Assembly (NCBI RefSeq): GCF_030463565.1
Contig: NC_134659.1
Location: 7,696,511 to 7,760,510, forward strand
From: Pelecanus crispus
Taxonomy: Eukaryota > Chordata > Aves > Pelecaniformes > Pelecanidae
DNA: 64,000 nucleotides
Direction of reading: 5' to 3'
The translations under genes were made by a program, and so were the position numbers. Below are positions 29,201 to 59,200 of this stretch, one piece after another. The notes beneath the pieces were generated by a model that had not been told where the DNA came from, did no database searches, and saw only the letters and a list, made by a program, of their open reading frames with translations. Within the stretch, counting starts at the first letter, position 1; the number at the start of each line of letters is the position of its first letter.

Positions 29201-32200
29201 ACCCAATGCGCACCCTGGCACCTAATGGTCACCTGAGGGGAACCCTGGCACCCGATGGGCACCCAACAACCGCCCTGGCACCTGATCGTCACCCAATGTG
29301 CACCCTGGCACCCGATGGGCACCCAATGGGAACCCTGGCACCCGATGGGCACCCAACAGCCGCCCTGGCACCTGATCGTCACCCAATGCGCACCCTGGCA
29401 CCCGATGGGCACCCAATGGGAACCCTGGCACCCGATGGGCACCCAGGAACCCTGGCACCCGATGGGCACCCAACAACCGCCCTGGCACCTGATCGTCACC
29501 CAATGTGCACCCTGGCACCCGATGGGCACCCAATGGGAACCCTGGCACCCGATGGGCACCCAACAGCCGCCCTGGCACCTGATCGTCACCCAATGTGCAC
29601 CCTGGCACCCGATGGGCACCCAATGTGCACCCTGGCACCCGATGGGCACCCAACAGCCGCCCTGGCACCCAATGGGCACCCAATGGGAACCCTGGCACCC
29701 AATGTGCACCCAATGCGCACCCTGGCACCCAGTGGTCACCTGAGGGGAACCCTGGCACCCGACGGGCACCCAACAGCCGCCCTGGCACCCAGCGGGCACC
29801 CGTCGGGCACTCACTCGGAGCCGGAGGAGTCCTCGTCCACGGTGCCCGCCTTGATGCTCATGGCGATGGGGGCGACGCCGCTGAGCTGCTCCTGCAGGCT
29901 CTGCCGGGGGCGGGGGGCCGCGGTGCCCCCCACCCTGCTGCCCTCGCTGCCCGAGGAGGCGGGGGGGCGGCGGGGGGGGCCCGAGGCGCTGGGTGCTGCC
30001 CCGCTCGCTGATGGGTGCCAGGCACTTCTTCTTCAGGATGCCTGCAAGGGCGGGGGGGGGGGGGGGCATCACCCAGGGTTTGGGGGTCCCCCCCAGCCTT
30101 GAGGTGCCGCCCCCCCCCCACCCGTCGACACCCGCGTGGGTGCAGGGCACCCCGTACCTTTCTGGGGGTGGGGCAGCAGCGGGGGGGGCCCTGGGGAGCC
30201 CCTCGCCGTTGAGGCGGGGGGGGTCGCCCCGGGGGGGGTCCCTCGCCCCCCGCCGGCTCCACGCGCAGGGGCTCGCTGCCCCCCGCGCCCTCGCTCTCGC
30301 TGGTCACGAACTCGCCCGGCCAGTACGGCTGGGCCGGGGGGCACCGGGCCGTCACCTGCGGGTGGGGGGCTGCTGGGACCGGAGGGCCAGGGACCCCCAT
30401 GCACACTGGGGGCCCCCCATCAGCACCCTGGACATGGTGAGGGACCCCCAACCCCACTGGGTGCCCCCCATCAGCACCCTGGACATGGTGAGGGACCCCC
30501 AACCCCCACTGGGTGCCCCCCATCAGCACCCTGGACATGGTGAGGGACCCCCCAAACCCATTGGGTGCCCCCCATCGGCACCCTGGACATGGTGAGGGAC
30601 CCCCCCCAACCCCCCCAACCCCACTGGGTGCCCCCCATCAGCACCCTGGACATGGTGAGGGACCCCCCAACCCCACTGGGTGCCCCCCATCAGCACCCTG
30701 GACATGGTGAGGGACCCCCCAAACCCATTGGGTGCCCCCCATCAGCACCCTGGACATGGTGAGGGACCCCCCAAACCCATTGGGTGCCCCCCCATCAGCA
30801 CGCTGGACATGGTGAGGGACCCCCAACCCCACTGGGGGCCCCCCATCAGCACCCTGGACATGGTGAGGGACCCCCCCCAACCCCCCCAACCCCACTGGGT
30901 GCCCCCCATTGGCACCCTGGACATGGTGAGGGACCCCCAACCCCACTGGGTGCCCCCCACCCACATACAGACAGGGCAAGAGACCCCTCCTAACCCCACC
31001 GGGTGCCCCTCCTTGCACCCCAGAGAGAGCAAGGGACCCCCCATCCCCACTGGGTGCCCCCCCCCGGTACCCTGGACAGGGTGAGGGACCCCCCCAATCC
31101 CCACTGGGTGCCCCCCATCGGCACCCTGGACATGGTGAGGGACCCCCAACCCCACTGGGTGCCCCCCACCCACATACAGAAAAGGCAAGAGACCCCTCCT
31201 AACCCCACCGGGTGCCCCTCCTTGCACCCCAGAGAGAGCAAGGGACCCCCCCATGCCCACTGGGTGCCCCCCCCGGTACCCTGGACAGGGTGAGGGACCC
31301 CCCCCAACCCCACTGGGTGCCCCCCATCGGCACCCTGGACATGGTGAGGGACCCCCCCCAACCCCACTGGGTGCCCCCCACCCACATACAGACAGGGCAA
31401 GAGACCCCTCCCAAACCCACTGGGTGCCCCTCCTTGCACCCCAGAGAGAGCAGGGGACCCCCCATCCCCACTGGGTGCCCCCCATCAGCACCCCAGACCG
31501 GGTGAGGGACCCCCAACCCCACTGGGTGCCCCCCCACCCACATACAGACAAGGCAACAGACCCCTCCTAACCCCACCGGGTGCCCCTCCTTGCACCCCAG
31601 AGAGAGCAAGGGACCCCCCCATCCCCACTGGGTGCCCCCCCTGGTACCCTGGACATGGTGAGGGACCCCCCCAAACCCATTGGGTGCCCCCATTGGCACC
31701 CCAGACTGGGTGAGAGACCCCCCAATCCCACTGGGTGCCCCCCCACCCACATACAGACAGGGCAAGAGACCCCTCCCACCCCCAGCGGGTGCCCCCCATC
31801 GGCACCCAAACCAGGCCGAGGGACCCCCCTCCCCCGCAGCGGGTGCCCCCCGGGGTGGCGTTACCGGGGGGGCCCCGGGGGGGGCCCGGGCAGGGCGTCC
31901 CAGCCGGCGGCGGGGGTCTCGTCCTCGCTCTCGGAGGAGCGCGTGGAGCCGTAGGAGCCGCTGCCGTCGTCCTCCAGCGAGAGGTCACTGTCCGAGTCCG
32001 TGTCCTGCTCTGCTGGGGTGCCAGGGCAGGGGGTGCCAGGGCAGGGGGTGCCAGGGGGCACCACCCCCCCCTCCCCAGGAGCAGCAGCAGCACCCGGGCT
32101 GAGGCCGGGCGCGCTCGTTGCACGCGCTGGGGCCTTACCCTCGGCTTGGTCCTGGGCGTCGAGGAAAAGCCCCCCGGGCTCGGCCAGCGCCCGCTGCCCC

Positions 32201-41200: not shown

Positions 41201-44200
41201 GGTGCCCCAGCCCCCATCCCCCCCCCCGCCCCCCATGGGTGCCTCAGCACCACCCGCCCCCCATGGGTGCCCCATGAACTCCCCGTCCCCTGCCCCCCAT
41301 GGGTGCCCCAGCACCCCATGCCCTCCCGCCCCCCATGGATACCCCAGCACCCCCCCGCCCCCCATGGGTGCCCCAGCCACCCATGCCCCCCATGGGTGCC
41401 CCAGCACCCCCCGCCCCCCATGGGTGCCCCAGCACCCCATGCCCTCCCGCCCCCTATGGGTGCCCCAGCCCCCCTGCCCCCCATGGGTGCCTCAGCCCCC
41501 ATGCCCCCCCCGCCCCCCATGGGTGCCTCAGCACCACCTGCCCCCCATGGGTGCCCCATGAACTCCCCGTCCCCCGCCCCCCATGGGTGCCCCAGCCCCC
41601 CTGCCCCCCATGGGTGCCCCAGCCCTCATGCGCCCTATGGGTGCCCCAGCCCCCCTGCCCCCCATGGGTGCCCCAGCCACCCCTGCCCCCCATGGGTGCC
41701 CCAGCCCCCCCGCCCCCCATGGGTGCCCCAGCACCCCATGCCCTCCCGCCCCCCGTGGGTACCCCAGCACCCCCCGCCCCCCATGGGTGCCCCCGCCCCC
41801 GTCACTCACGCGGCACCCTTCTTCTCGAAGCCCTGCGGGGTGGCGCAGGTGGCCCTGGCCGCCAGCACGAGGAAGCCGATCCCGACCTGCGGGGGCGCGG
41901 GGGTGAGCGGGGCCCGGGGGGGTGGGGGGGGGGCACCCATGGGTGCCCCGGCCGCCCCGCAGCCCCATACGCACGGCCACGGCGCAGGCGATGGGCCCCG
42001 CCAGGCTCCAGACCAGGCTGTCGTGGATGGAGAGCCAGCAGAAGTCGGGGTTGCCGTAGCCCTCGGGGTCCAGCCCCACCGCCAGCCCTGCCCCACGGCA
42101 CGGCTCAGGGGCGGGGCCCGGGCAGGGGGCGGGGCTGGGGCCGGGGGGCGGGGCTGAGGCGGGAGGGGCGGGGCTGAGGCGAGGAGGGGCGTGGCTAAGG
42201 CGGGAGGGGCGTGGCTAAAGCGAGAGGGGCGTGGCTAAAGCGAGAGGGGCGTGGCTAAAGCGAGAGGGGCGTGGTTAAGGCGGGAGGGGCGTGGCTAAGG
42301 CGGGAGGGGCGTGGCTAAAGCGAGAGGGGCGTGGCTAAAGCGAGAGGGGCGTGGCTAAGGCGGGAGGGGCGTGGCTAAGGCGGGAGGGGCGTGGCTAAGG
42401 CGGGAGGGGCGGGGTGGGGGAGGTGTCCTGGGTGCTCGGGGGCGGGGCTGTGCGGGGTGAGGGCGGGGCTATGACCCTGGGGGCGGGGCTATGGTGAATG
42501 AGGGCGGGGCTATAGCCTTGGGGGCGGGGCTACGCGCTTGGGGGCGGGGCCAAGCTCTTGGGGGCGGGGCTATGATCGTCGGGGCGGGGTCAGGCTCTTG
42601 GGGGCGGGGCTATGGCAGATGAGGGCGGGGCTAAGACATTGGGGCAGGGCTAGCCTCTTAGGGGCGGGGCTACAGACTTGGGGCGGGGCTATGCTCGTCG
42701 GGGCGGGGTCAGGCTCTTGGGGGCGGGGCTATGGCAGATGAGGGCGGGGCTATAGCCTCGGGGGCGGGGCTAAGACATTGGGGCAGGGCTAGCCTCTTAG
42801 GGGCGGGGCTACAGACTTGGGGCGGGGCCATGCTCTTTGGGGGCGTGGCTCTGCCCTTTGGGGGCGGGGCTACGCATGGAAATGAGGCCCCACCCCGCAA
42901 CCAGGCAGGCGGGGGAGGTGAGTCGGGGGCGTGGCCAAGCCCTAGAAGGGGGCGTGGCCACCCAGCGGGGGGTTGACCCAGGTGGGGGCGGGTGGTCCGG
43001 GGAGGGGGGGGGCTCCGTGGGCGTGGCCTCACCGGTGATGAAGGCGGGCAGCCCCCAGCCCAGGACGTGGTAGAAGCGCATGGGCCCGCGGTCGACATGC
43101 CGGGGCTCGCTGCGGCGCCGGTAGAGGTGCAGCCCCTCCAGCAGCGCCCAGCCCACCGCGCTCATGTAGAGGAACTGCAGCAAGATGGCCACCACCGTGC
43201 ACGCCAGCTGCGCCCCGCGCGTCACTGCCCCGCCCCACGGAGCCCCGCCCGCGCCCCCCCCCGGAGCTCCGCCCCCTGCAGCCACACCCATGAAAGCCAC
43301 GCCCACGTAACCGCATGCACGACCCTTGGAGCTCCGCCCCCTCCGCAGCCACACCCCTGAAAGCCACGCCCCTCCCTGTAGCCACACCCACGTTAGCCCC
43401 ACCCCACCCCATTCCCCCCACCCTGGGAGCCCCACCTCCTTTGCGAGCCACGCCCCCTTCAGGATCCCCGCCCCTTGTGTGAGGCTCCACCCCCTCTTTG
43501 AAAGCTCCACCCCTTTCGAGAGGCCCCTCCCCCTTGGGAGCCCCACCCCCTTGAAAGCCCCTCCCCCTTGGGAGCCCCACCCCCTTGAAAGCCCCACCCC
43601 TTTTGAGAGGCCCCACCCCCTTGGGAGCCCCACCCCCTTGGGAGCCCCACCCCTTTGAGAGGCCCCACCCCTTTGAGAGGCCCCACCCCCTTGAAAGCCC
43701 CACCCCCTTGAAAGCCCCACCCCCTTGAGAGGCCCCACCCCTTTCGAGAGGCCCCACCCCTTTGAGAGGCCCCACCCCTTTTGAGAGGCCCCTCCGCCCC
43801 ACCCCCTTTTGAGAGGCCCCTCCCCCTCGGGAGCCCCACCCCCTTGGGAGCCCCACCCCCTTGAAAGCCCCACCCCTTTCGAGAGGCCCCACCCTTTGAG
43901 AGGCCCCCACCCCTTTTGAGAGGCCCCTCCCCCTCGGGAGCCCCACCCCCCTTGAAAGCCCCTCCCCCTCGGGAGCCCCACCCCCTTGGAGCCCCACCCC
44001 CTTGAAAGCCCCCACCCCTTTCGAGAGGCCCCACCCCCTTGAGAGCCCCACCCCTTTCGAGAGGCCCCACCCCTTTGAGAGGCCCCACCCCTTTTGAGAG
44101 GCCCCTCCCCCTCGGGAGCCCCACCCCCTTGGCCCCAAGCCACCCAGCTCCGCCCAACCCTTGGCCCTCGCCCCCGCGCTTCACCCCACCCACTTCACCC

Positions 44201-47200
44201 CCCCGCCCCCCCACGCCCCCCCCCCCCCACGCCCCCCCCCGGCGGTACCGGGCTGTCGGCCTGGTTGATGCCGAGCAGGAAGACGAGCTGCGCCAGGAGC
44301 AGGGCGGTGGCCCCGTGGCGCCGGATGCTGTGGCGGTTGGAGCGGGGCCCCCGCGGCCCCCCCAGCGCCAGCACGGCCAGCAGCAGCCCCGCCAGCCCCA
44401 CGGCCAGCGAGGCGTAGGTCAGGGCGGCCAGCGGCAGGAGCTCCCCGCTCTGCGGCACCGCGGCCGCGTCGGCGTGCGCCCCGCCGCGCCACGCCCCGCG
44501 CCCCGCCCCGCGCCCCGCCCGCATCGCCACACACCCCGGCGGGCTTAGGCCTATGGGAAAGCGCCACCCACCTGGCGGGGCCACACCCTCTTTGGTAGCC
44601 CCCTTCCCCCTTCGGGAGCCACGCCCACCGCGCTTAGCCCCCGCCCACATGGCAGCCCCCGCCCACATTTCACACCCCCCCGCCCCCCCTTGGAGCCCTG
44701 CACATCCCGCTTAGCCCCGCCCCACGGCAGCCCCGCCCACATTTCACAGCCCCGCCCCGCCTTGGAGCCCCGCCCACCCCGCTTAGCCCCCGCCCACATG
44801 GCAGCCCCGCCCACATTTCACACCCCCCGCCCCCCCCTTGGAGCCCTGCACATCCCGCTTAGCCCCGCCCCACGGCAGCCCCGCCCACATTTCACAGCCC
44901 CGCCCCGCCTTGGAGCCCCGCCCACCCCGCTTAGCCCCGCCCACATGGCAGCCCCGCCCACATTTCACACCCCCGCCCCCCCCTTGGAGCCCCGCACATC
45001 CCGCTTAGCCCCGCCCCACGGGAGCCCCGCCCCCATTTCACAGCCCCGCCCCGCCTTGGAGCCCCGCCCACCCCGCTTAGCCCCGCCCCATGGCAGCCCC
45101 GCCCACATTTCACAGTCCCGCCCCCCCCTTGGAGCCCGGCACATCCCGCCTTAGCCCCGCCCCCTTTTAGCCCCGCCCATATTGCTCAGTCCCCGCCCTC
45201 CCTTGGAGCCCCGCCCATCCCGCTTAGCCTCGCCCCACGGGAGCCCCGCCCCCATTTCACAGCCCCGCCCCCTTGGAGCCCCGCCCCCTTTTAGCCCCGC
45301 CCATATTGCTCAGTCCCGCCCCCCCCTTGGAGCCCCGCCCATCCCGCTTAGCCCCGCCCCACGGGAGCCCCGCCCAGCTGAGCCCCGCCCCCGTTTCACA
45401 GTCCCACCCCCCGAGCCCCCGCCCATCCCGCTTAGCCCCGCCCCCTTTTAGCCCCGCCCCATGGCAGCCCCGCCCATATTGCTCAGTCCCGCCCCCCCTT
45501 GGAGCCCCGCCCACCCCGCTTAGCCCCGCCCCATGGCAGCCCCGCCCCCATTTCACAGCCCCGCCCCCCTTGGAGCCCCGCCCATCCCACTTAGCCCCGC
45601 CCACATTTCTCAGCCCCGCCCCCTTGGAGCCTCGCCCACCCCGCTTAGCCCCGCCCCACAGGAGCCCCGCCCTGTCCCTGGGTCCCCCCGTGTCCTGTGC
45701 CCCCCGTGCCCCCCCACATCCCCCGTGTCCCCCCCGTGCCCCCCCGTGCCCCCCATATCCCCCGTGCCCCCCATGTCCCCCCCATGTCCCCCCCGTGCCC
45801 CCCACATCCCCCGTGCCCCCCACATCCCCGTGCCCCCCCGTGCCCCCCACATCCCCCGTGCCCCCCACATCCCCCGTGCCCCCCCGTGTCCCCCACATCC
45901 CCCGTGCCCCCCCCGTGCCCCCCCCACATCCCCCGTGACCCCCCCATATCCCCCGTGCCCCCCGTGCCCCCCCCACATCCCCCGTGACCCCCCCATATCC
46001 CCCCGTGCCCCCCGTGCCCCCCACATCCCCCGTGCCCCCCCACATCCCCCGTGCCCCCCCACATCCCCCGTGCCCCCCCGTGCCCCCCCACATCCCCCGT
46101 GACCCCCCCATATCCCCCGTGCCCCCCGTGCCCCCCACATCCCCCGTGCCCCCCCACATCCCCCGTGCCCCCCATGTCCCCCCCGTGCCCCCCGTGTCCC
46201 CCGTGCCCCCCACGTCCCCCGTGCCCCCCCACATCCCCCGTGCCCCCCATGTCCCCCCCCGTGCCCCCCCACATCCCCCGTGCCCCCCGTGCCCCCCACA
46301 TCCCCCGTGCCCCCCCGTGCCCCCGGTGCCCCCCATGCCCCCCGTGCCCCCCCCGTGCCCCCGGTGCCCCCCCGCCCCCCGTGCCCCCGCACCTCGCGGC
46401 GGGACCGGTCCATGAGCACGGCGAAGCTGCTGAGCTGGCGGCACTGGCAGCTCACGTGGCTCCGGTTGCGGAACACGACGGCGCAGCCCCCTCGCCGACC
46501 AGCCGCCCGGGACCCCCCGCCCTGCGCCGGCACCTCAGCCCCCGCACGGACCCCCCGCACCGGGACCCCCCCCCCCCACCGGGACCCCCGCCCTGCGCCG
46601 GCACCTCAGCCCCCGCACGGACCCCCGCCCACCGGGACCCCCCCCCCCACCGGGACCCCCCGCCCCGCCCGGGACACCCACCCTGCCCGGGACCCCCGCC
46701 CCACCGGGACCCCCGCCCTGCGCCGGCACCTCAGCCTCCGCACGGACCCCCGCCCCCGCAGGGACCCCCCGCCCCGCCGGACCCCCCCCCCACCGGACCC
46801 CCGCCCTGCCCGGGACCCCCGCCCTGCGCTGGCACCTCAGCCCCCGCACGAACCCCCGCCCACCGGGACCCCCCCCCCCACCGGGACCCCCGCCCTGCGC
46901 CGGCACCTCAGCCCCCGCACGGACCCCCCCCCCACCGGGACCCCCGCCCCGCCCGGGACCCCCGCCCTGCGCCGGCACCTCAGCCTCCGCACGGACCCCC
47001 GCCCCGCAGGGACCCCCGCCCCACCGGGACCCCCCGCCCCGCCCGGGATCCCCACCCTGCCCGGGGACACCCACTGGCACCCTCAGCCTCCACCCAGGAC
47101 CCCCACCCCGCCCGGGACCCCCGCCCCGCAGGGACCCCTGCCCCACCCGGGACACCCACCGTGCCCGGGGACACCCACTGGCACCCTCAGCCTCCGCCCG

Positions 47201-50200
47201 GGACCCCCGCCCCGCCCGGGACCCCCGCCCTGCCCGGGACACCCACCCTGCGCCGGCACCTCAGCCTCCGCAGGGACCCCCGCCCCGCAGGGACCCCCCA
47301 CCCCGCCCAGGACACCCCACCGTGCCCGGGGACACCCACTGGCACCCTCAGCCTCCGCCCGGGACCCCCACCCCGCCCGGGACCCCCACCCCGAAGGGAC
47401 CCCCCACCCCACCCGGGACACCTGCCCTGCGTCGACACCTCAGCCTCCGCCCGGACCCCCGCCCCGCAGGGACCCCCGCCCCGCCCGGGACCCCTGCCCT
47501 GCCCGGGACACCCACTGACACCCTCAGCCTCCACCCGGGACCCCCGCCTGGGACCCCCACCCTGCCCAGGTCCCCCACCCCACCCAGGACCCCCACCCTG
47601 CCCAGAACCCCCACCGGCACCCTCAGCCACTGCTCAGGGGCACCCACCCCCCCCAGGATGCCCACAGGCACCCCACCCCTGACACCCCCCCCACCCGGGA
47701 CGACCCCACCCCACCGGGACCACCCACCAGCACCCCCGTCCCCGCCCACCGCCCACCACGCCCCCGTCCCCGTGTCACCCCCCAAGGTCAAGGCCTCCGA
47801 GCACGGCCCTGTCCCCTGCCACTGCCCCCCGTGACCCCAGGGCCCTCCCCATCCCCACGACACCCACCGGGTGCCACCCACCCACCCCGCCCGCGCCGCG
47901 CCCGGGGGTCCCGCCCGGGGGTCCCGCCCGGGGTGCCCCCCACTCACAGCAGGGAGTGGTTCCAGAAGACGCAGACGGGCTTGGAGCGCTCCTGGGTCTC
48001 CAGCAGCCGGAACTGGAGGGTGAGGGGCTTGGCCAGCACCCCGCCGCGCCCGCGCCCCCCCCGGCGTGCACGCTGATGCTCACCACCGGCGTGTTGATCA
48101 CCGGGCGCTTGGGCACCCTGGGGTGCGGCGGGGTCAGGGGTCCCCATGGGCACCCCCGCACCCCCGTGCCCCCACCCTTGGGTGCCCCATGGGCACCCTC
48201 CCTGTCCCCAATGTCCCACCACCCCCCTGGGCACCCTCCCACCCCCCGTGCCCCCACCCTTGGGCACCCCTTGGGCACCCTCCCACCCCCCGTGCCCCCA
48301 CCCTTGGGCACCCATGGGCACCCTCCCACCCCCTGGGCACCTTCCCACCCCCGTGCCCCCACCCTTGGGCATCCCATGGGCACCCTCCCCTGTCCCCAAT
48401 ATCCCACCACCCCATGGGCACCCTCCCACCCCCCGTGCCCCCACCCATGGGCACCCCACGGGCACCCTCCCAGCCCCCCATGCCCCCACCCTTGGGCATC
48501 CATGGGCACCCTCCCCCCCCCTGTGCCCCCCACCCTTGGGCACCCATGGGCACCCTCCCTGTCTCCCCATCCCCCACCACCCCACGGGCACCCTCCCACC
48601 CCCCGTGCCCCCACCCTTGGGCACCCACGGGCACCCTCCCTGTCCCCAATGTCCCACCACCCCACGGGCACCCACCTCAGCCCCCCTTGGGCACCCCATG
48701 GGCACCCTCCCACCCCCCGTGCCCCCACCCATGGGCACCCATGGGCACCCCCCCACCCCCCGTGCCCCCACCCCTTGGGCACCCCACGGGCACCCTCCCC
48801 CCCGTGCCCCCCCCCGTGCCCCCCGCACCTGAGGCTGCGCTTGTCGGTGTCGTAGCGCTCGGGCAGGAGCGTGGCCAGGGTGCGGTAGATGATGACGCTG
48901 GCGATGGCCTGGCCCTGGCCCAGGGCTGGGTGCCGCCTGCGCCGGGTCACCAGGGGTCGCCTGCCCCTCCTCGCCCTCCTCCTCCTCCTCCTCCTCCTCC
49001 TCCGCTGCGGCATCTTCGGCCTCCTCCTCCTCCTCCTCCTCCTGCCCGCCCATGCCCTGCGCTGGCTGCCCGGGCCCCACCCGAGGGGCCTGGGGGTGTG
49101 GGTGGGGGCTGGCATGAGGCACTGCCAGCCCCACGGCCACGCCGGGGACCCCAACCCCGCCAGCCCCACGGCCACGCCGGGGACCCCCAATTCTGCCAGC
49201 CCCATCCTGGGGTCCCCAACCCCACCAGCCCCCACGGCCACACCAGGGACCCCAACCCCGCCAGCCCCATCCCTGGGGACCCCAACCCCCGCCAGCCCCA
49301 CGGCCACGCCGGGGGACCCCAATTCTGCCAGCCCCACGGCCACACCGGGGACCCCAATTCTGCCAGCCCCCACGCCCACGCCGGGGACCCCAATTCTGCC
49401 AGCCCCATCCTGGGGTCCCCAACCCCACCAGCCCCACGGCCACACCAGGGACCCCCAACCCCGCCAGCCCCACGGCCACACCGGGGACCCCAATTCTGCC
49501 AGCCCCATCCTGGGGTCCCCAACACCACCAGCCCCACGGCCACACCGGGGACCCCAATTCTGCCAGCCCCACGGCCACGCCGGGGACCCCAACCCCGCCA
49601 GCCCCACGGCCACGCCGGGGACCCCAATTCTGCCAGCCCCATCCTGGGGTCCCCAACCCCACCAGCCCCACGGCCACACCAGGGACCCCAACCCCCGCCA
49701 GCCCCACGGCCACACCGGGGACCCCAACCCCGCCAGCCCCACGGCCACACCGGGGACCCCCAATTCTGCCAGCCCCATCCTGGGGTCCCCAACACCACCA
49801 GCCCCACGGCCACACCGGGGACCCCCAATTCTGCCAGCCCCACGCCCACCGCCGGGGACCCCAATTCTGCCAGCCCCATCCTGGGGTCCCCAACCCCACC
49901 AGCCCCCACGGCCACACCAGGGACCCCAATTCTGCCAGCCCCACGGCCACACCGGGGACCCCAATTCTGCCAGCCCCATCCTGGGGTCCCCAACACCACC
50001 AGCCCCACGGCCACACCGGGGACCCCAATTCTGCCAGCCCCACGGCCACACCGGGGACCCCAACCCCGCCAGCCCCATCCTGGGGTCCCCAACCCCGCCA
50101 GCCCCATCCTGGGGTCCCCAACCCCACCAGCCCCACGGCCACACCAGGGTCCCCAACCCCGCCAGCCCCACGGCCACACCAGGGACCCCAACCCTGCCAG

Positions 50201-53200
50201 CCCATGCTGGGGTCCCCAACCCCGCCAGCCCCATCCTGGGGTCCCTAACCCCACCAGCCCCACAGCCACGCCAGGGACCCCAACCCCGCGAGCCCCACAG
50301 CCACACCGGGGACCCCAATTCTGCCAGCCCCACGGCCATCCTGGGGTCCCCAACCCTGCCAGCCCCATCCTGGGGTGCCCAACCCCGCCAGCCCCACGGC
50401 CACACCGGGGACCCCAACCCCACCAGCCCCATGTTGGGGTCCTCAACCCCACCAGCCCCATGGCCACGCCGGGGTCCCCAATTCTGCCAGCCCCATCCTG
50501 GGGTGCCCAACCCCACCAGCCCCATGGCCACACCGGGGTCCCCAACCCTGCCAGCCCCATGCTGGGGACCCCAAACCCGCCAGCCCCATGGCCACACTGG
50601 GGACCCCAACCCCGCCAGCCCCATCCTGGGGTGCCCAACCCCGCCAGCCCCATGGCCACGCCAGGGTCCCCAATTCTGCCAGCCCCACGGCCATCCTGGG
50701 GTCCCCAAACCCCAAACCCCAAGCCCCACGGCCACGCCGGGGACCCCAATTCTGCCCGCCCCATCTTGGGGTCCCCAACCCCGCCAGCCCCACGGCCATC
50801 CTGGGGTCCCCAACCCCACCAGCCCCATCCTGGGGTCCCCAACCCTGCCAGCCCCACGGCCACACCAGGGACCCCAACCCTGCCAGCCCCATCCTGGGGT
50901 CCCCAACCCCCCCAGCCCCACGGCCACGCTGGGGTCCCCAATTCTGCCAGCCCCATGGCCACGCCGGGGTCCCCAGCCCCGCCAGCCCCATGTTGGGGTC
51001 CCCAACCCCGCCAGCCCCATCCTGGGGTCCCCAACCCACCAGCCCCACGGCCACACTGGGGTGCCCAACCCCGCCAGCCCCACGGCCACGCCAGGGTCCC
51101 CAACCCCGCCAGCCCCATGTTGGGGTCCCCAACCCTGCCAGCCCCACGGCCACACTGGGGTCCCCCCCCAACCCCGCCGGCCCCACGGCCATGCCGGGGT
51201 CCCCAGCCCTGCCAGCCCCATTCCAGGGTCCCCCCATCCCCGCCAGCCCATGGATGTGCCAGGGTCCCCCCCGCCCCCCAGCCTGTGCCAGCCCCCCCCC
51301 GGCCCCCCCGGCCCCCCCAGCCTCAGGCCCGGACTCACGGAAGACGCCGTCGGGCAGGATGACGGTGGTCTCCAGGTCGGGGGGCTTCTCCCCCCGCAGC
51401 GCCTCGTAGCGCGGCAGCCGGGTGCCCGCGAAGCTGCCCTTGTCCAGCCGCACCACCGACACCACTGCGGCACCGCGCACCCATGGCCCACGGCACCCAC
51501 GGTCCCCCCACCCACAGCCCCTGCACCCATGGTCCCCTCAGCCACGGCACCCACAGCACCCACGGTCCCCCCACCCACAGCCCCCTGCACCCACAGTCCC
51601 CCCACCCACGGTCCCTGCACCCACAGTCCCCCCACCCACGGCACCCACAGCACCCAGGGTCCCCCCACCCACGGCCCCCTGCACCCACAGCCCCTGCACC
51701 CATGGTCCCCTCAGCCACAGCACCCACGGCCCCCTGCACCCACGGTCCCCCCACCCACGGCCCCCTGCACCCACAGCCCCCTGCACCCACAGTCCCCCCA
51801 CCCACAGCCCCCTGCACCCACAGTCCCCCCACCCACGGCACCCACAGCACCCAGGGTCCCCCCACCCACGGCCCCCTGCACCCACAGCCCCCTGCACCCA
51901 CAGTCCCCCCACCCACGGCACCCACAGCACCCAGGGTCCCCCCACCCATGCCCCCCTGCACCCACAGCCCCTGCACCCACAGCTCCCCGCACCCACGGTC
52001 CCCCCACCCACGGCACCCACGGTCCCCCCCACCCACAGCCCCTGCACCCATGGTCCCCTCAGCCACGGCACCCACAGCCCCTGCACCCACAGCCCCTGCA
52101 CCCACAGTCCCCCCACCCACAGCCCCTGCACCCACAGCCCCCTGCACCCACAGTCCCGCCACCCATGGCACCCATGGCCCCCTGCACCCATGGTCCCCCC
52201 ACCCACAGCACCCACGGCCCCCTGCACCCACAGCCCCTGCACCCATGGTCCCCTCAGCCACGGCACCCACAGCCCCTGCACCCACAGCCCCCTGCACCCA
52301 CAGTCCCGCCACCCACGGCACCCATGGCCCCCTGCACCCATGGTCCCCCCACCCACAGCACCCACGGTCCCTGCACCCACGGTCCCCCCACCCACAGCCC
52401 CCTGCACCCACAGCCCCTGCACCCATGGCCCCCTGCACCCACAGCCCCCTGCACCCACAGCCCCTGCACCCACAGTCCCCCCACCCACGGCACCCATGGC
52501 CCCCTGCACCCACAGTCCCCCCACCCACAGCCCCTGCACCCATGGTCCCCTCACCCACAGCACCCACGGCCCCCTGCACCCACGGTCCCCCCACCCACAG
52601 CCCCCTGCACCCACAGTCCCCCCACCCACGGCACCCATGGCCCCCTGCACCCATGGTCCCCCCACCCACAGCCCCCTGCACCCACAGTCCCTGCACCCAT
52701 GGCCCCCGCACCCACAGCCCACGGCCCCCACGGTCTCCTGCACCCGCCACCCCCACACCCACGGACCCCCCCGCACCCACGGTCCCTGCACCCATGGTCC
52801 CTGGCACCCACAGTGCCCGCACCCACGGTCCCCCCCACCCACGGTCCCTGCACCCACGGCCCCTGCACCCATGGCCCCCTCACCCACGGCACCCACAGCC
52901 CCCCGCACCCACGGCCCCCAGCACCCACAGCGCAGGTCCCTGGGTATGTGTCCCCTGGGCACACGCGTGGCAGCATCCCCGGTGCACACGTGCACACACA
53001 CACACGCACACACACAAATGCCCATGTTCCTGGGCACACGCGTGTCCCCTGGGCACACGTAGCGGGGGGCACAGCACTCATGTCCCCAGGCTGCACATGT
53101 CCATGTCCCCAGGCACACGCATGCCCACGTCCCCGGGCACACGCAGACCCGTGTTCCCTGGCACATCCCCTGGGCACACACATGCCTACCAGCCTGGTCA

Positions 53201-56200
53201 CACGTGTGTCCCCGGTCATACATGTGTCCCCAGACACATACATGTCCCCAACCCTAAGCATGCAGGGACCCACAGCCCCTGGTCACACACACACCCATGG
53301 ACCGAGGGGCACATGTGTCTTTGGGCATACACATGTCCCCGGGCACATGCGTGTCCCCCAGGTACACACATGCCCATGTCCCCAGCACACGTGTCCTTGA
53401 GCACACGCATGTGCCCTGGGCACACGTGTCCCCAGGCACACACATGTCCCCTGGGCACACACATGTCCTTGGGGACATGCGTGTTCCCAGGCACACACAT
53501 CTCCCCTGGGCACACACGTGTCCATATCCCCAAGCACACACATGTTCTCCAGGCACACACATACATGTCTTTGGGGACACGCATGTCTCCAGCAGCCACA
53601 AGTCCCCTGAGCACACACGTGTCCCCAAGCACACACATCTCCCCTGGGCACACACGTGTCCATGTCCCCAGGCACACACATGTCCTCCAGGCACATGTGT
53701 GCCCATGTCCCCAGCACACACGTGTCCCCAGGCACACGTATGCCCCCCAGGCACACACATGTCCTTGGGGACACGCACGTCCCCAGCAGCCACACGTCCC
53801 TTGGGCACACACGTGTCCCCAGGCACACACATCTCCCCTGGGCACATGCGTGTCCATGTCCCCAGGCACACACGTGTCCATATCCCCAAGCACACACATG
53901 TTCTCCAGGCACACACATACATGTCTTTGGGGACATGCATGTCTCCAGCAGCCACAAGTCCCCTGAGCACACACGTGTCCCCAAGCACACACATCTCCCC
54001 TGGGCACACACGTGTCCATGTCCCCAGGCACACACATGTCCTCCAGGCACATGTGTGCCCGTGTCCCCAGCACACACGTGTCCTTAGGCACACGTATGCC
54101 CCCCAGGCACACACATGTCCTTGGGGACACGCACGTCCCCAGCAGCCACACGTCCCTTGGGCACACGCGTGTCCCCAGGCACACACATCTCCCCTAGGCA
54201 CATGCGTGTCCATGTCCCCAGGCACACACGTGTCCATATCCCCAAGCACACACATGTTCTCCAGGCACACACATACATGTCTTTGGGGACACGCATGTCT
54301 CCAGCAGCCACAAGTCCCCTGAGCACACATGTGTCCCCAGGCACACACATCTCCCCTGGGCACACACGTGTCCATGTCCCCAGGCACACACACGTCCTCC
54401 AGGCACATGTGTGCCCATGTCCCCAGCACACACGTGTCCTTAGGCACACGTATGCCCCCCAGGCACACACATGTCCTTGGGGACATGCACGTCCCCAGCA
54501 GCCACACGTCCCTTGGGCACACGCGTGTCCCCAGGCACACACGTCTCCCCTAGGCACATGCGTGTCCATGTCCCCAGGCACACACGTGTCCATATCCCCA
54601 AGCACACACATGTTCTCCAAGCACACACATACATGTCTTTGGGGACACGCATGTCTCCAGCAGCCACACGTCCCCTGGGCACACACGTGTCCCCAAGCAC
54701 ACACATCTCCCCTGGGCACACACGTGTCCATGTCCCCAGGCACACACACGTCCTCCAGGCACATGTGTGCCCATGTCCCCAGCACACACGTGTCCTTAGG
54801 CACACGTATGCCCCCCAGGCACACACATGTCCTTGGGGACACGCACGTCCCCAGCAGCCACACGTCCCTTGGGCACACACGTGTCCCCAGGCACACACAT
54901 CTCCCCTGGGCACATGCGTGTCCATGTCCCCAGGCACACACGTGTCCATATCCCCAAGCACACACATGTTCTCCAGGCACACACATACATGTCTTTGGGG
55001 ACACGCATGTCTCCAGCAGCCACACGTCCCCTGGGCACACACGTGTCCCCAAGCACACACATCTCCCCTGGGCACACACGTGTCCATGTCCCCAGGCACA
55101 CACATGTCCTCCAGGCACATGTGTGCCCGTGTCCCCAGCACACACGTGTCCTTAGGCACACGTATGCCCCCCAGGCACACACATGTCCTTGGGGACACGC
55201 ACGTCCCCAGCAGCCACACGTCCCTTGGGCACACACGTGTCCCCAGGCACACACATCTCCCCTGGGCACATGCGTGTCCATGTCCCCAGGCACACACGTG
55301 TCCATATCCCCAAGCACACACATGTTCTCCAGGCACACACATACATGTCTTTGGGGACACGCATGTCTCCAGCAGCCACACGTCCCCTGGGCACACACGT
55401 GTCCATGTCCCCAGGCACACACACGTCCTCCAGGCACATGTGTGCCCATGTCCCCAGCACACACGTGTCCTTAGGCACACGTATGCCCCCCAGGCACACA
55501 CATGTCCCCAGCAGCCACACGTCCCCAGGCACACACACATCCCCTGGGCACACGTGTCCATGTCCCCAGTCACGCACACATCCCCCGGGCACACGCGTGT
55601 CCCCAGGCACACCTACGCCCGTGTCCCCGGCCCCCCGCCCGGCACACGCGTGTGCCCGCTCACCGATGTTGGGGGTGACGATGGTGAAGGGGCTGAGGTA
55701 GGTCTGGGGCATGTTCTGCGCCAGGGCGCTGGCGTAGTCCTCGAAGTGCTTGAGCAGCCAGGCCGTGCCCCCCTCCGTCTGCTGGATCAGCTCCCAGTGC
55801 CGCTTGTTGCTGGCGTCCAGCAGGGCGCTGCCCACCCGCAGCAGGTTCTGCCGGCACGGGCAGGGCGGGCAGTGCCCCCGCTGCCCCGCACCCTGGCACC
55901 GGGGCGCCCGCACCAGCCCACCCCGTCAGGGTGCCCATCGCCCCGGCGTCGGGCCTCCTGCACCAGCCCACCCCGTCAGGGTGCCCTGCACCAGCCCACC
56001 CCGTCAGGGTGCCCGTCACCCTGGCATCAGGCCTCCTGCACCAGCCCACCCCGTCAGGGTGCCCATCGCCCCGGCATCAGGCCTCCTGCACCAGCCCACC
56101 CCGTCAGGGTGCCCGTCACCCTGCATCAGGCCTCCTGCACCAGCCCACCCCGTCAGGGTGCCCATCGCCCTGGCATCGGGCCTCCTGCACCAGCCCACCC

Positions 56201-59200
56201 CGTCAGGGTGCCCATCGCCCCGGCATCAGGCCTCCTGCACCAGCCCACCCCGTCAGGGTGCCCATCGCCCTGGCATCAGGCCTCCTGCACCAGCACACCC
56301 CGTCAGGGTGCCCATCGCCCTGGCATCAGGCCTCCTGCACCAGCCCATCCCGTCAGGGTGCCCATCGCCCCGGCATCAGGCCTCCTGCACCAGCACACAC
56401 CCCCCCTACCCATGAGGGTGCCCATCACCCTGGCATCAGGCCTCCTGCACCAGCCCACCCCGTCAGGGTGCCCATCGCCCCGGCGTCGGGCCTCCTGCAC
56501 CAGCACACCCCCCCCCCCTACCCATGAGGGTGCCCATCACCCTGGCATCAGGCCTCCTGCACCAACACCCCCCTGCCATCAGGGTGCCCATCGCCCTGGC
56601 ATCTGGCCTCCTGCAGCAACACCCCCCCCACCCATGAGGGTGCCCATCACCCCGGCATCTGGGCTCCAGCACCAAGACCCCTGCCATCAGGGTGCCCATG
56701 AGGGTGCCCATCACCCCAGTCTCTGGGTTCCCACACCAAGACCCCTGCCCGCCCCACCCCATGGGCACCCATCACCCTGGTCTCTGGGCTCCGGCACCAA
56801 GACCCCCCACCCATGAGGGTGCCCATGAGGGTGCCCACTGCCCTGGTCTCTGGGCTGCCGTACCAACACCCCCCACCCATGAGGGTGCCCACGAGGGTGC
56901 CCATGAGGGTGCCCATCACCCCAGTGCCTGGCCTGGTGCACCAAGGCCCCCCTATCCATGAGGGTGCCCACGAGGGTGCCCATCGCCCTGGGCTCCCATA
57001 CCAACACCCCCCACCCACGAGGATGCCCGCGAGGGTGCCCATGAAGGTGCCCACGAGGGTGCCCACGAGGATGCCCATGGGGGTGCCCACGAGGGTGCCC
57101 ATCGCCCTGGGTTCCCAAACCAACACCCCCCACCCACGAGGGTGCCCATGAGGATGCCCATGAGGGTGCCCACGAGGATGCCCACGAGGGTGCCCACGAG
57201 GGTGCCCACGAGGGTGCCCATGAAGGTGCCCATGAGGATGCCCACGGGGGTGCCCATGAGGATGCCCATCGCCCTGGTCTCTGGGCTCCCGTACCAACAC
57301 CCCCTACCCATGAGGGTGCCCACGAGGATGCCCATGAGGATGCCCATGAAGGTGCCCACGAGGATGCCCATGAGAATGCCCACGAGGGTGCCCATGAGGA
57401 TGCCCATGAGGATGCCCACGAGGGTGCCCACGAGGATGCCCATGAGGGTGCCCATGAAGGTGCCCACGAGGGTGCCCATCGCCCCAGGCTCCCATACCAG
57501 CACCCCCCACCCATGAGGATGCCCACGAGGATGCCCATGAGGATGCGCACGAGGATGCCCATGAGGATGCCCACGAGGGTGCCCATGAGGGTGCCCATGA
57601 GGATGTCCATGAGGATGCCCATGAGAATGCCCACGAGGGTGCCCATGAAGGTGCCCACGAGGATGCCCACGAGGGTGCCCATGAGGGTGCCCATGAGGAT
57701 GCCCATGAGAATGCCCATGAGAATGCCCACGAGGGTGCCCATGAAGGTGCCCACGAGGATGCCCATGAAGGTGCCCATGAGGGTGCCCATGAGGATGCCC
57801 ATGAGAATGCCCATGAGAATGCCCACGAGGGTGCCCATGAGGGTGCCCATGAGGGTGCCCATGAGGATGCCCACGAGGGTGCCCATGAGGATGTCCATGA
57901 GGATGCCCATGAGAATGCCCACGAGGATGCCCACGAGGGTGCCCACGAGAATGCCCACGAGGGTGCCCATGAAGGTGCCCACGAGGATGCCCACGAGGGT
58001 GCCCACGAGGATGCCCACGAGGATGCCCATCGCCCCGGGCTCCCATACCAACACCCCCCACCCATGAGGATGCCCACGAGGTTGCCCATCGCCCCAGCGC
58101 CTGGCCCGGCGCACCCCAGGCCCCCCCCACCCCCGGGCGCCCGTCCGCGGGCGCGGGCCGCACCTCGGTGAAGTGGACGTCCTGGGTGGCGGCGAGGCGG
58201 AAGCCGCGCTGGGCGCTCTCGTGCTGCAGCAGGCGGCTGGCCAGGCGGTAGGCCAGGCGCAGGTCGCTGCCGAAGTATGCGGCGGTGCGGCGGGTGGCGT
58301 CGTGCAGCTGCAGGGCCACGCGCCGCGACTGCGCCGGGTCCAGCGCCGACTCGTTGCGCGCCAAGCGCTCCGCCTGCCCGGGGGGCACCGTCAGCGGGGT
58401 GGGGGGGGGGAAGGCGGCGGCGATGGCCCCGCGTGTCGTCCCCCCGCCCCGGTCGCTCACCCAGGCGCGGAGGGCGGCGAAGGCCAGCGAGCTGCAGTTG
58501 AAGAGGTTGGGGGGCAGCCAGCCCTTGTGCTCGTCGCAGTGCCGCACCGCCGTGCCTGCGGGGAGCGCGGCTCAGCCCGGCGCCGCCCGGCACCGCCCTC
58601 GCACCCCCGCCCGGCACCGCCCTCACACCCCCGCCCGGCACCGCCCTCGCACCCCCCGCCCGGCACCGCCCTCGCACCCCCGCCCGGCACCGCCCTCGCA
58701 CCCCGCCCGGCACCGCCCTCGCACCCACACCCGGCACCGCCCTCGCACCCCCCGCCCGGCACCGCCTTTGCACCCCGCCCGGCACCGCCCTCGCACCCAC
58801 ACCCGGCACCGCCCTTACACCCCCGCCCGGCACCGCCCTCGCACCCCCCGCCCGGCACCGCCTTCGCACCCCGCCCGGCACCGCCTTCGCACCCCCGCCC
58901 TGCACCGCCCTCGCACCCCCGCCCGGCACCGCCCTCGCACCCCGCCCGGCACCGCCCTCGCACCCACACCCGGCACCGCCCTCGCACCCCCGCCCGGCAC
59001 CGCCTTCGCACCCCGCCCGGCACCGCCTTCGCACCCCCGCCCTGCACCGCCCTCGCACCCCCGCCCGGCACCGCCTTCGCACCCCGCCCGGCACCGCCTT
59101 CGCACCCCCGCCCGACACCGCCCTCGCACCCACACCCGGCACCGCCCTCGCACCCCCGCCCGGCACCGCCCTCGCACCCCCGCCCGGCACCACCCTCGCA

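Follow-up and report, generated by a model that had tools for sequence, protein, structure and literature searches.

Self-cleaving adhesion GPCRs carry an H-X-S/T motif at the GPS. The His at position -2 takes the proton from the hydroxyl of the +1 residue and this hydroxyl then attacks the preceding peptide bond (PMC13062082). Mutations of the -2 His have been reported to abolish cleavage (PMC13197933), and the LAT-1 H528A protein is uncleaved in worms (PMC3776922). Full-length ADGRB3, which features an Arg at -2, shows 0 cleavage; the introduction of His gives 6.5% and the introduction of His together with Phe gives 24.5% (PMC13062082). The cut site of human CELSR2 is given as H2355 and T2357 (PMC5730153), which agrees with the human site named in the original prediction for the locus described here. 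Loss of the motif is common and has been reported in CELSR/Fmi, EMR, and BAI receptors, and the GPS is strongly constrained even without it; the same paper compares the GPS of Lphn2, Celsr1, and Celsr2 across 17 species, which may include birds (PMC3776922). Among 148 mammalian ADGRB2 sequences the -2 residue is His in 31.6%, Arg in 30.8%, and Gln in 28.0% (PMC13062082). ADGRC2, the gene for CELSR2, is described as being under positive selection on several branches including Amniota and Passeriformes (PMC8584163). A 2026 review treats as open why self-cleavage occurs in many adhesion GPCRs but is missing from others (PMC13197933). Searches of open-licence papers gave no earlier statement on the bird CELSR2 motif and no previous account of such a change in CELSR2, and the terms "cleav" and "GPS" are absent from a paper on Celsr1 and Celsr2 (PMC9878842).

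The window is a stretch of 64,000 nucleotides from Pelecanus crispus (NC_134659.1, positions 7,696,511 to 7,760,510), and positions below are window positions unless a contig is named. The gene on its minus strand is identified by sequence similarity, with presumed human probe sequences, as an orthologue of CELSR2 (ADGRC2), because the human CELSR2 probe matches it from the 7TM region through the tail and SORT1 lies nearby; the CELSR2 assignment made in the original prediction is supported by the same evidence. The human CELSR2, SORT1, and SARS1 probes, and the human GPS letters other than H2355 and T2357, are presumed sequences, and human CELSR2 is taken to neighbour SORT1. A local tblastn of the flanks with the human SORT1 probe located plus-strand SORT1 exons that run from C17:7647699 and lie 43-49 kb outside the window, and the SARS1 probe gave 0 matches at E 1e-3 in 164 kb around the window. 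The GPS exon is identical to the presumed human CELSR2 sequence at 25 of 32 residues (78%) and is 58-61% identical to CELSR1 and CELSR3 of the same genome; it is thus nearer to CELSR2, by pairwise identity rather than by a tree. Two 20-kb stretches of the same genome, one spanning the CELSR1-like locus on C1 and one the CELSR3-like locus on C7, were translated and matched colinear exons in the window. The laminin-EGF, HormR, and GAIN A exons were matched via the CELSR3 stretch only, with no match from the CELSR1 stretch there, and the GAIN B, GPS, and 7TM exons were matched via one or both stretches. The domain order of CELSR2 (laminin-EGF, HormR, GAIN, GPS, 7tm_2) is present, and the cadherin repeats fall outside the window. 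Pfam returned the expected family for 7/7 other exon stretches when the ends were frame-true, two of them below the cut-off, and 0 families for all three of 43029-43160, 44195-44417, and 47944-48096, probably from off-frame ends. A Pfam search for neighbouring genes in the plus-strand frames of 1-29999, with stops read through, gave 0 families in 6/6 stretches at E 0.01.

All of the exons lie on the minus strand and follow the protein from high to low positions. The laminin-EGF exon (63485..63664; Pfam EGF_laminin, E 8e-12) is followed by the hormone receptor (HormR) exon (62276..62434; Pfam HRM, E 3.6e-6, 27.7 bits, cut-off 26.2) and by two exons of GAIN subdomain A, one at 58140..58376 (Pfam GAIN, E 2.5e-5, 24.2 bits, below the cut-off of 26.5) and one at 55659..55895 (Pfam GAIN PF16489, E 3.1e-19), all four with matches to the CELSR3 of the same genome. 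The GAIN-B exon that precedes the GPS exon (47950..48119) features the CVFW motif with Phe S10.49 (codon 47967-47965), and its reading frame is broken at 48062, where a G8 run lies. Downstream of the GPS exon, CELSR sequences match the TM1-TM2 exon (44246..44452; Pfam 7tm_2, 19.3 bits, below the cut-off of 20.6), the TM3-TM4 exon (43031..43210; 7tm_2, E 6.8e-14), and the exon of the second extracellular loop and TM5 (41969..42088; 7tm_2, E 6.2e-7). A stretch at 29814..30290 ends in a CELSR2-type C-terminal tail, recognized with the presumed human CELSR2 sequence; its upstream, poorly matching part contains two stops and is probably non-coding in that frame. The end of TM1 (44336-44374, minus strand) departs from the presumed human CELSR2 FFFLTLLRILRSN and is odd for a helix end; it lies beside G7 and G5 runs, so two sequence errors that compensate each other may be the cause. 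The CELSR2 introns contain many C-rich tandem arrays between 40000 and 52000, where TRF gave 94 overlapping rows, for example 49124-51220 with period 35.

The GPS exon runs from acceptor to donor at 46393..46521, with a CAG acceptor, 46521 as the first exon base, and a GTGCGG donor at 46392. It was identified by translation and by a match to Pfam GPS (PF01825) at E 1.7e-7 and 32.1 bits, with a cut-off of 22.5. Minus-strand translation confirmed the predicted substitution at the GPS: the -2 codon is CAG (46435..46437), and this position is Gln where human CELSR2 and P. crispus CELSR1 feature His, so that the His of a self-cleaving H-X-S/T motif is missing. The +1 codon is AGC (46429..46431), and the would-be Ser nucleophile is kept, also as predicted. 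The adjoining codons encode Arg at -3 (CGC, 46440-46438) and Leu at -1 (CTC, 46434-46432), and the human N-H-M-T is presumed to correspond to R-Q-L-S here, a change of a four-residue block. Two further cleavage determinants, Phe/Tyr S10.49 and a Gly before Cys S12.50 (as defined in PMC13062082), are both present, in CVFW and in ARG-C, the latter spanning a frame break; S10.49 was placed via the CxFW motif and the spacing to rat L1 F803/H836 rather than via structure. The Gly lies in GWSARG (46487..46507), whose frame is not that of the rest of the exon. The Trp that was predicted to remain is therefore present, but in a separate frame, since GWSARG is in frame 2 and GCAVVF is in frame 0, the two being separated by a G5 run (46491). 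The core of the tethered agonist (Stachel), SSFAVLM (46411..46431), is intact by translation, the element being described in PMC12922695 and PMC13197933. The CELSR2 described here thus keeps the Ser nucleophile, Phe S10.49, Gly-Cys, the GPS cysteines, an N-R-S sequon, and the agonist strand.

The genome (1.31 Gb, 310 contigs) was searched in all six frames, with scoring of the best candidates. Among these the window itself was the one full match, six further GPS loci matched more weakly, and no second copy or alternate haplotype of the GPS exon appeared. A second, His-bearing GPS exon within CELSR2 was considered and dropped, as it was absent among the matches of the genome search and of the CELSR1 and CELSR3 stretches. 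Pattern searches for bird sequences present as contaminants in prokaryote and viral collections gave 136 and 10 matches, respectively, with 0 confirmed as a relative. All seven GPS loci scored in the genome search were read for the internal comparison, a sample biased towards CELSR-like sequences. In the order S10.49, Gly, -2, and +1, the window CELSR2 is F/G/Q/S. CELSR1 of the same genome is F/G/H/T with an H-I-T motif (C1:17893423-17893515, minus strand; L002/L009), and so keeps every determinant examined, whereas CELSR2 is without the base. The CELSR3 locus (C7:37574933-37575025; L003) is Q/D/Q/G and reads SQ-F-GTF, and the ADGRB2 locus (C16:7464379-7464438; L007, L012) is T/S/Q/A and reads C-RQ-L-ATF; both have lost all four determinants. 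Three latrophilin-type loci (L004, L005, L006) are F/G/H/T, of which L005 agrees with ADGRL3, and the latrophilin-type names of L004 and L006 are presumed. All four determinants are kept at 4/7 loci and are lost at 2/7, and the window CELSR2 alone is without the base only. The C1 locus was assigned to CELSR1 since its GPS exon and preceding exon score best against the CELSR1 of PDB 8vy2 (56 and 76 bits), the species of which we take to be mammalian. The ADGRB2 locus has its best PDB match in 8oek (50.9 bits). The -3 residue is Arg in both the window CELSR2 and ADGRB2 of the same genome and is Asn in its CELSR1. Additionally, the CELSR2 exon and ADGRB2 have the 18-mer TGCCAGTGCCGCCAGCTC in common. 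A short gene conversion from ADGRB2 as its source was dropped, as both exon pieces have a GC3 of 0.92, and convergence under such codon usage seems to be enough for the shared TGCCAGTGCCGCCAGCTC.

The reading preferred here, with a probability of about 0.73, is that the gene is a functional CELSR2 orthologue in which the -2 His has been replaced by Gln and whose receptor is made as one uncut chain. The Gln would be unable to accept the proton of the Ser +1 hydroxyl, and the receptor-splitting N-O acyl shift would not start efficiently. As Gln provides no base, CELSR2 would be expected to stay in one piece and to arrive at the membrane as a single uncut chain. It may still signal without dissociation, as reported for CELSR1 and CELSR3. 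The non-cleaved receptor of the original prediction is thus the best prediction if the codon is real, because cleavage is absent from the published mutants of the -2 His. The altered agonist exposure claimed with it is possible, but as stated it is unsupported, since the S-SFAVLMD strand is intact and cleavage-dead relatives can work. Cirl H>A keeps function, with conflicting reports for other receptors (PMC13197933), LAT-1 H528A keeps function (PMC3776922), and signalling in the absence of GPS cleavage is attributed to CELSR1 and CELSR3 (PMC13062082). As the His mutants of LAT-1 and Cirl are functional and CELSR1 and CELSR3 signal uncut, loss of cleavage need not abolish signalling. A counter-case is the cleavage-dead ADGRF5 mouse, which shows the knockout phenotype (PMC13197933). 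That function has been kept at this locus is supported by the exons sampled from laminin-EGF to 7TM, which match CELSR sequences.

The evidence for the Gln codon comes from one assembly and one individual, and the local sequence quality is poor because there are frame breaks at G runs in the GPS exon and the preceding exon, which are two of the four exons whose three frames were examined. In the GPS exon the G5 run at 46491 separates the GWSARG frame from the GCAVVF frame, and a second extra base would lie between the junction and GWSARG, at the G6 run at 46518, with the phase hand-counted from the donor CT/GTGAGT. The breaks in the exons look like homopolymer insertions. The GC content is 0.76 around the GPS exon and reaches 0.81 in 46001-48000, and the window contains 0 N bases, with a 200-N scaffold gap (L018:7902-8101) about 7.9 kb past its right edge, on the 5' side of CELSR2. 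The breaks show an imperfect consensus nearby. Together with the gap and the GC content they speak for the alternative that the species has His (CAC) and a cleavable H-L-S and that the Gln is a wrongly assembled base or a rare allele carried by the individual sequenced, for which one C to G change would suffice. The kept Phe, Gly, and nucleophile would fit a polymorphism or an error as well as they would fit a very recent change. However, the errors observed are confined to G runs, and the Gln codon lies neither in nor beside any run of more than 2 bases (CGC-CAG-CTC-AGC). The original prediction was correct in placing the codon outside homopolymers, although a substitution error or polymorphism is still compatible with that position. 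The presumed human CELSR2 has other residues at -3, -1, and +1 too, so that four of the seven differences are consecutive; a run of four among seven random differences in 32 residues has a P of about 0.026. These three neighbouring differences are therefore no product of a single error, although a single error could make the His to Gln step alone. An error or rare allele is for these reasons considered rather unlikely. The frame breaks would also suit a decaying CELSR2 pseudogene with the Gln as neutral debris, as would stops in the tail region, within 32091-31795 and 30290-29814, where the match is poor. This is very improbable, since the exon breaks occur at G runs within frames that are otherwise open from laminin-EGF to 7TM and the final residues of the tail are nearly unchanged; the tail stops fall in poorly matched sequence, which may be intronic or read in the wrong frame.

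A real Gln could also be accompanied by slow cleavage through strain, water, or another base. Strain is thought to be relevant to GAIN autoproteolysis, SEA domains have been modelled as cleaving without a catalytic base, and reported half-lives range from days for ADGRL1 F803Y/W to about 100 days for ADGRB2 (PMC13062082); Phe S10.49 and the Gly are retained here. The precedents with a changed -2 residue argue against this, as LAT-1 H528A is uncut (PMC3776922), -2 His mutants are generally uncut (PMC13197933), and wild-type full-length ADGRB3 with its Arg is uncut as well (PMC13062082), which leaves slow cleavage improbable. The reading that we infer is an uncut CELSR2, in which the codon would be real in the animal, the protein would not be cleaved, and signalling would take a dissociation-free route.

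The loss of the -2 His as such is already known, from the Gln of ADGRB2 and from motif losses in CELSR1, CELSR3, BAI, and insect Flamingo. A loss of the base only in CELSR2, next to a CELSR1 whose motif is intact, would amount to a natural point mutant with an internal control, and would caution against transferring the mammalian CELSR1 and CELSR2 cleavage states to work on birds. It is tentatively suggested that the cleaving member has been swapped, such that in mammals CELSR2 has the motif and CELSR1 does not, and this lineage is reversed; this suggestion draws on one genome, the CELSR1 of PDB 8vy2, and H2355/T2357 of human CELSR2. If the change is fixed across a clade, the family would still comprise a single CELSR that cleaves and two that do not, with a different member as the cleaving one. 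If true, this would provide a natural test of what cleavage contributes to planar cell polarity and to the wiring of the brain.

Human CELSR2 (H2355, T2357) is similar to the protein described here in its tail, exons, SORT1 neighbourhood (by presumed probe sequences), agonist strand, Phe S10.49, and Gly-Cys, and differs in that the -2 His is Gln, the presumed -3 Asn is Arg, and the +1 Thr is Ser in P. crispus. The naturally cleavage-resistant CELSR1 and CELSR3 are alike in being CELSR-family receptors that are reported to signal uncut (PMC13062082). The CELSR1 of PDB 8vy2 keeps the Phe, the Gly, and the His and features Ala at +1 (H-S-A), whereas the CELSR2 described here keeps the nucleophile and lacks the His. 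CELSR1 of P. crispus, unlike that of PDB 8vy2, has a complete H-I-T motif, and both Phe S10.49 and Gly-Cys are retained. Insect Flamingo represents motif loss between CELSR/Fmi orthologues in another lineage, known from the legend of Figure S4 in PMC3776922. ADGRB2 (BAI2) and ADGRB3 (BAI3) likewise show loss of the -2 His, and ADGRB2 of the same genome reads R-Q-L-A. The human ADGRB2 and ADGRB3 proteins are without Phe S10.49 (S876 and L821; PMC13062082), whereas the CELSR2 described here keeps this Phe.
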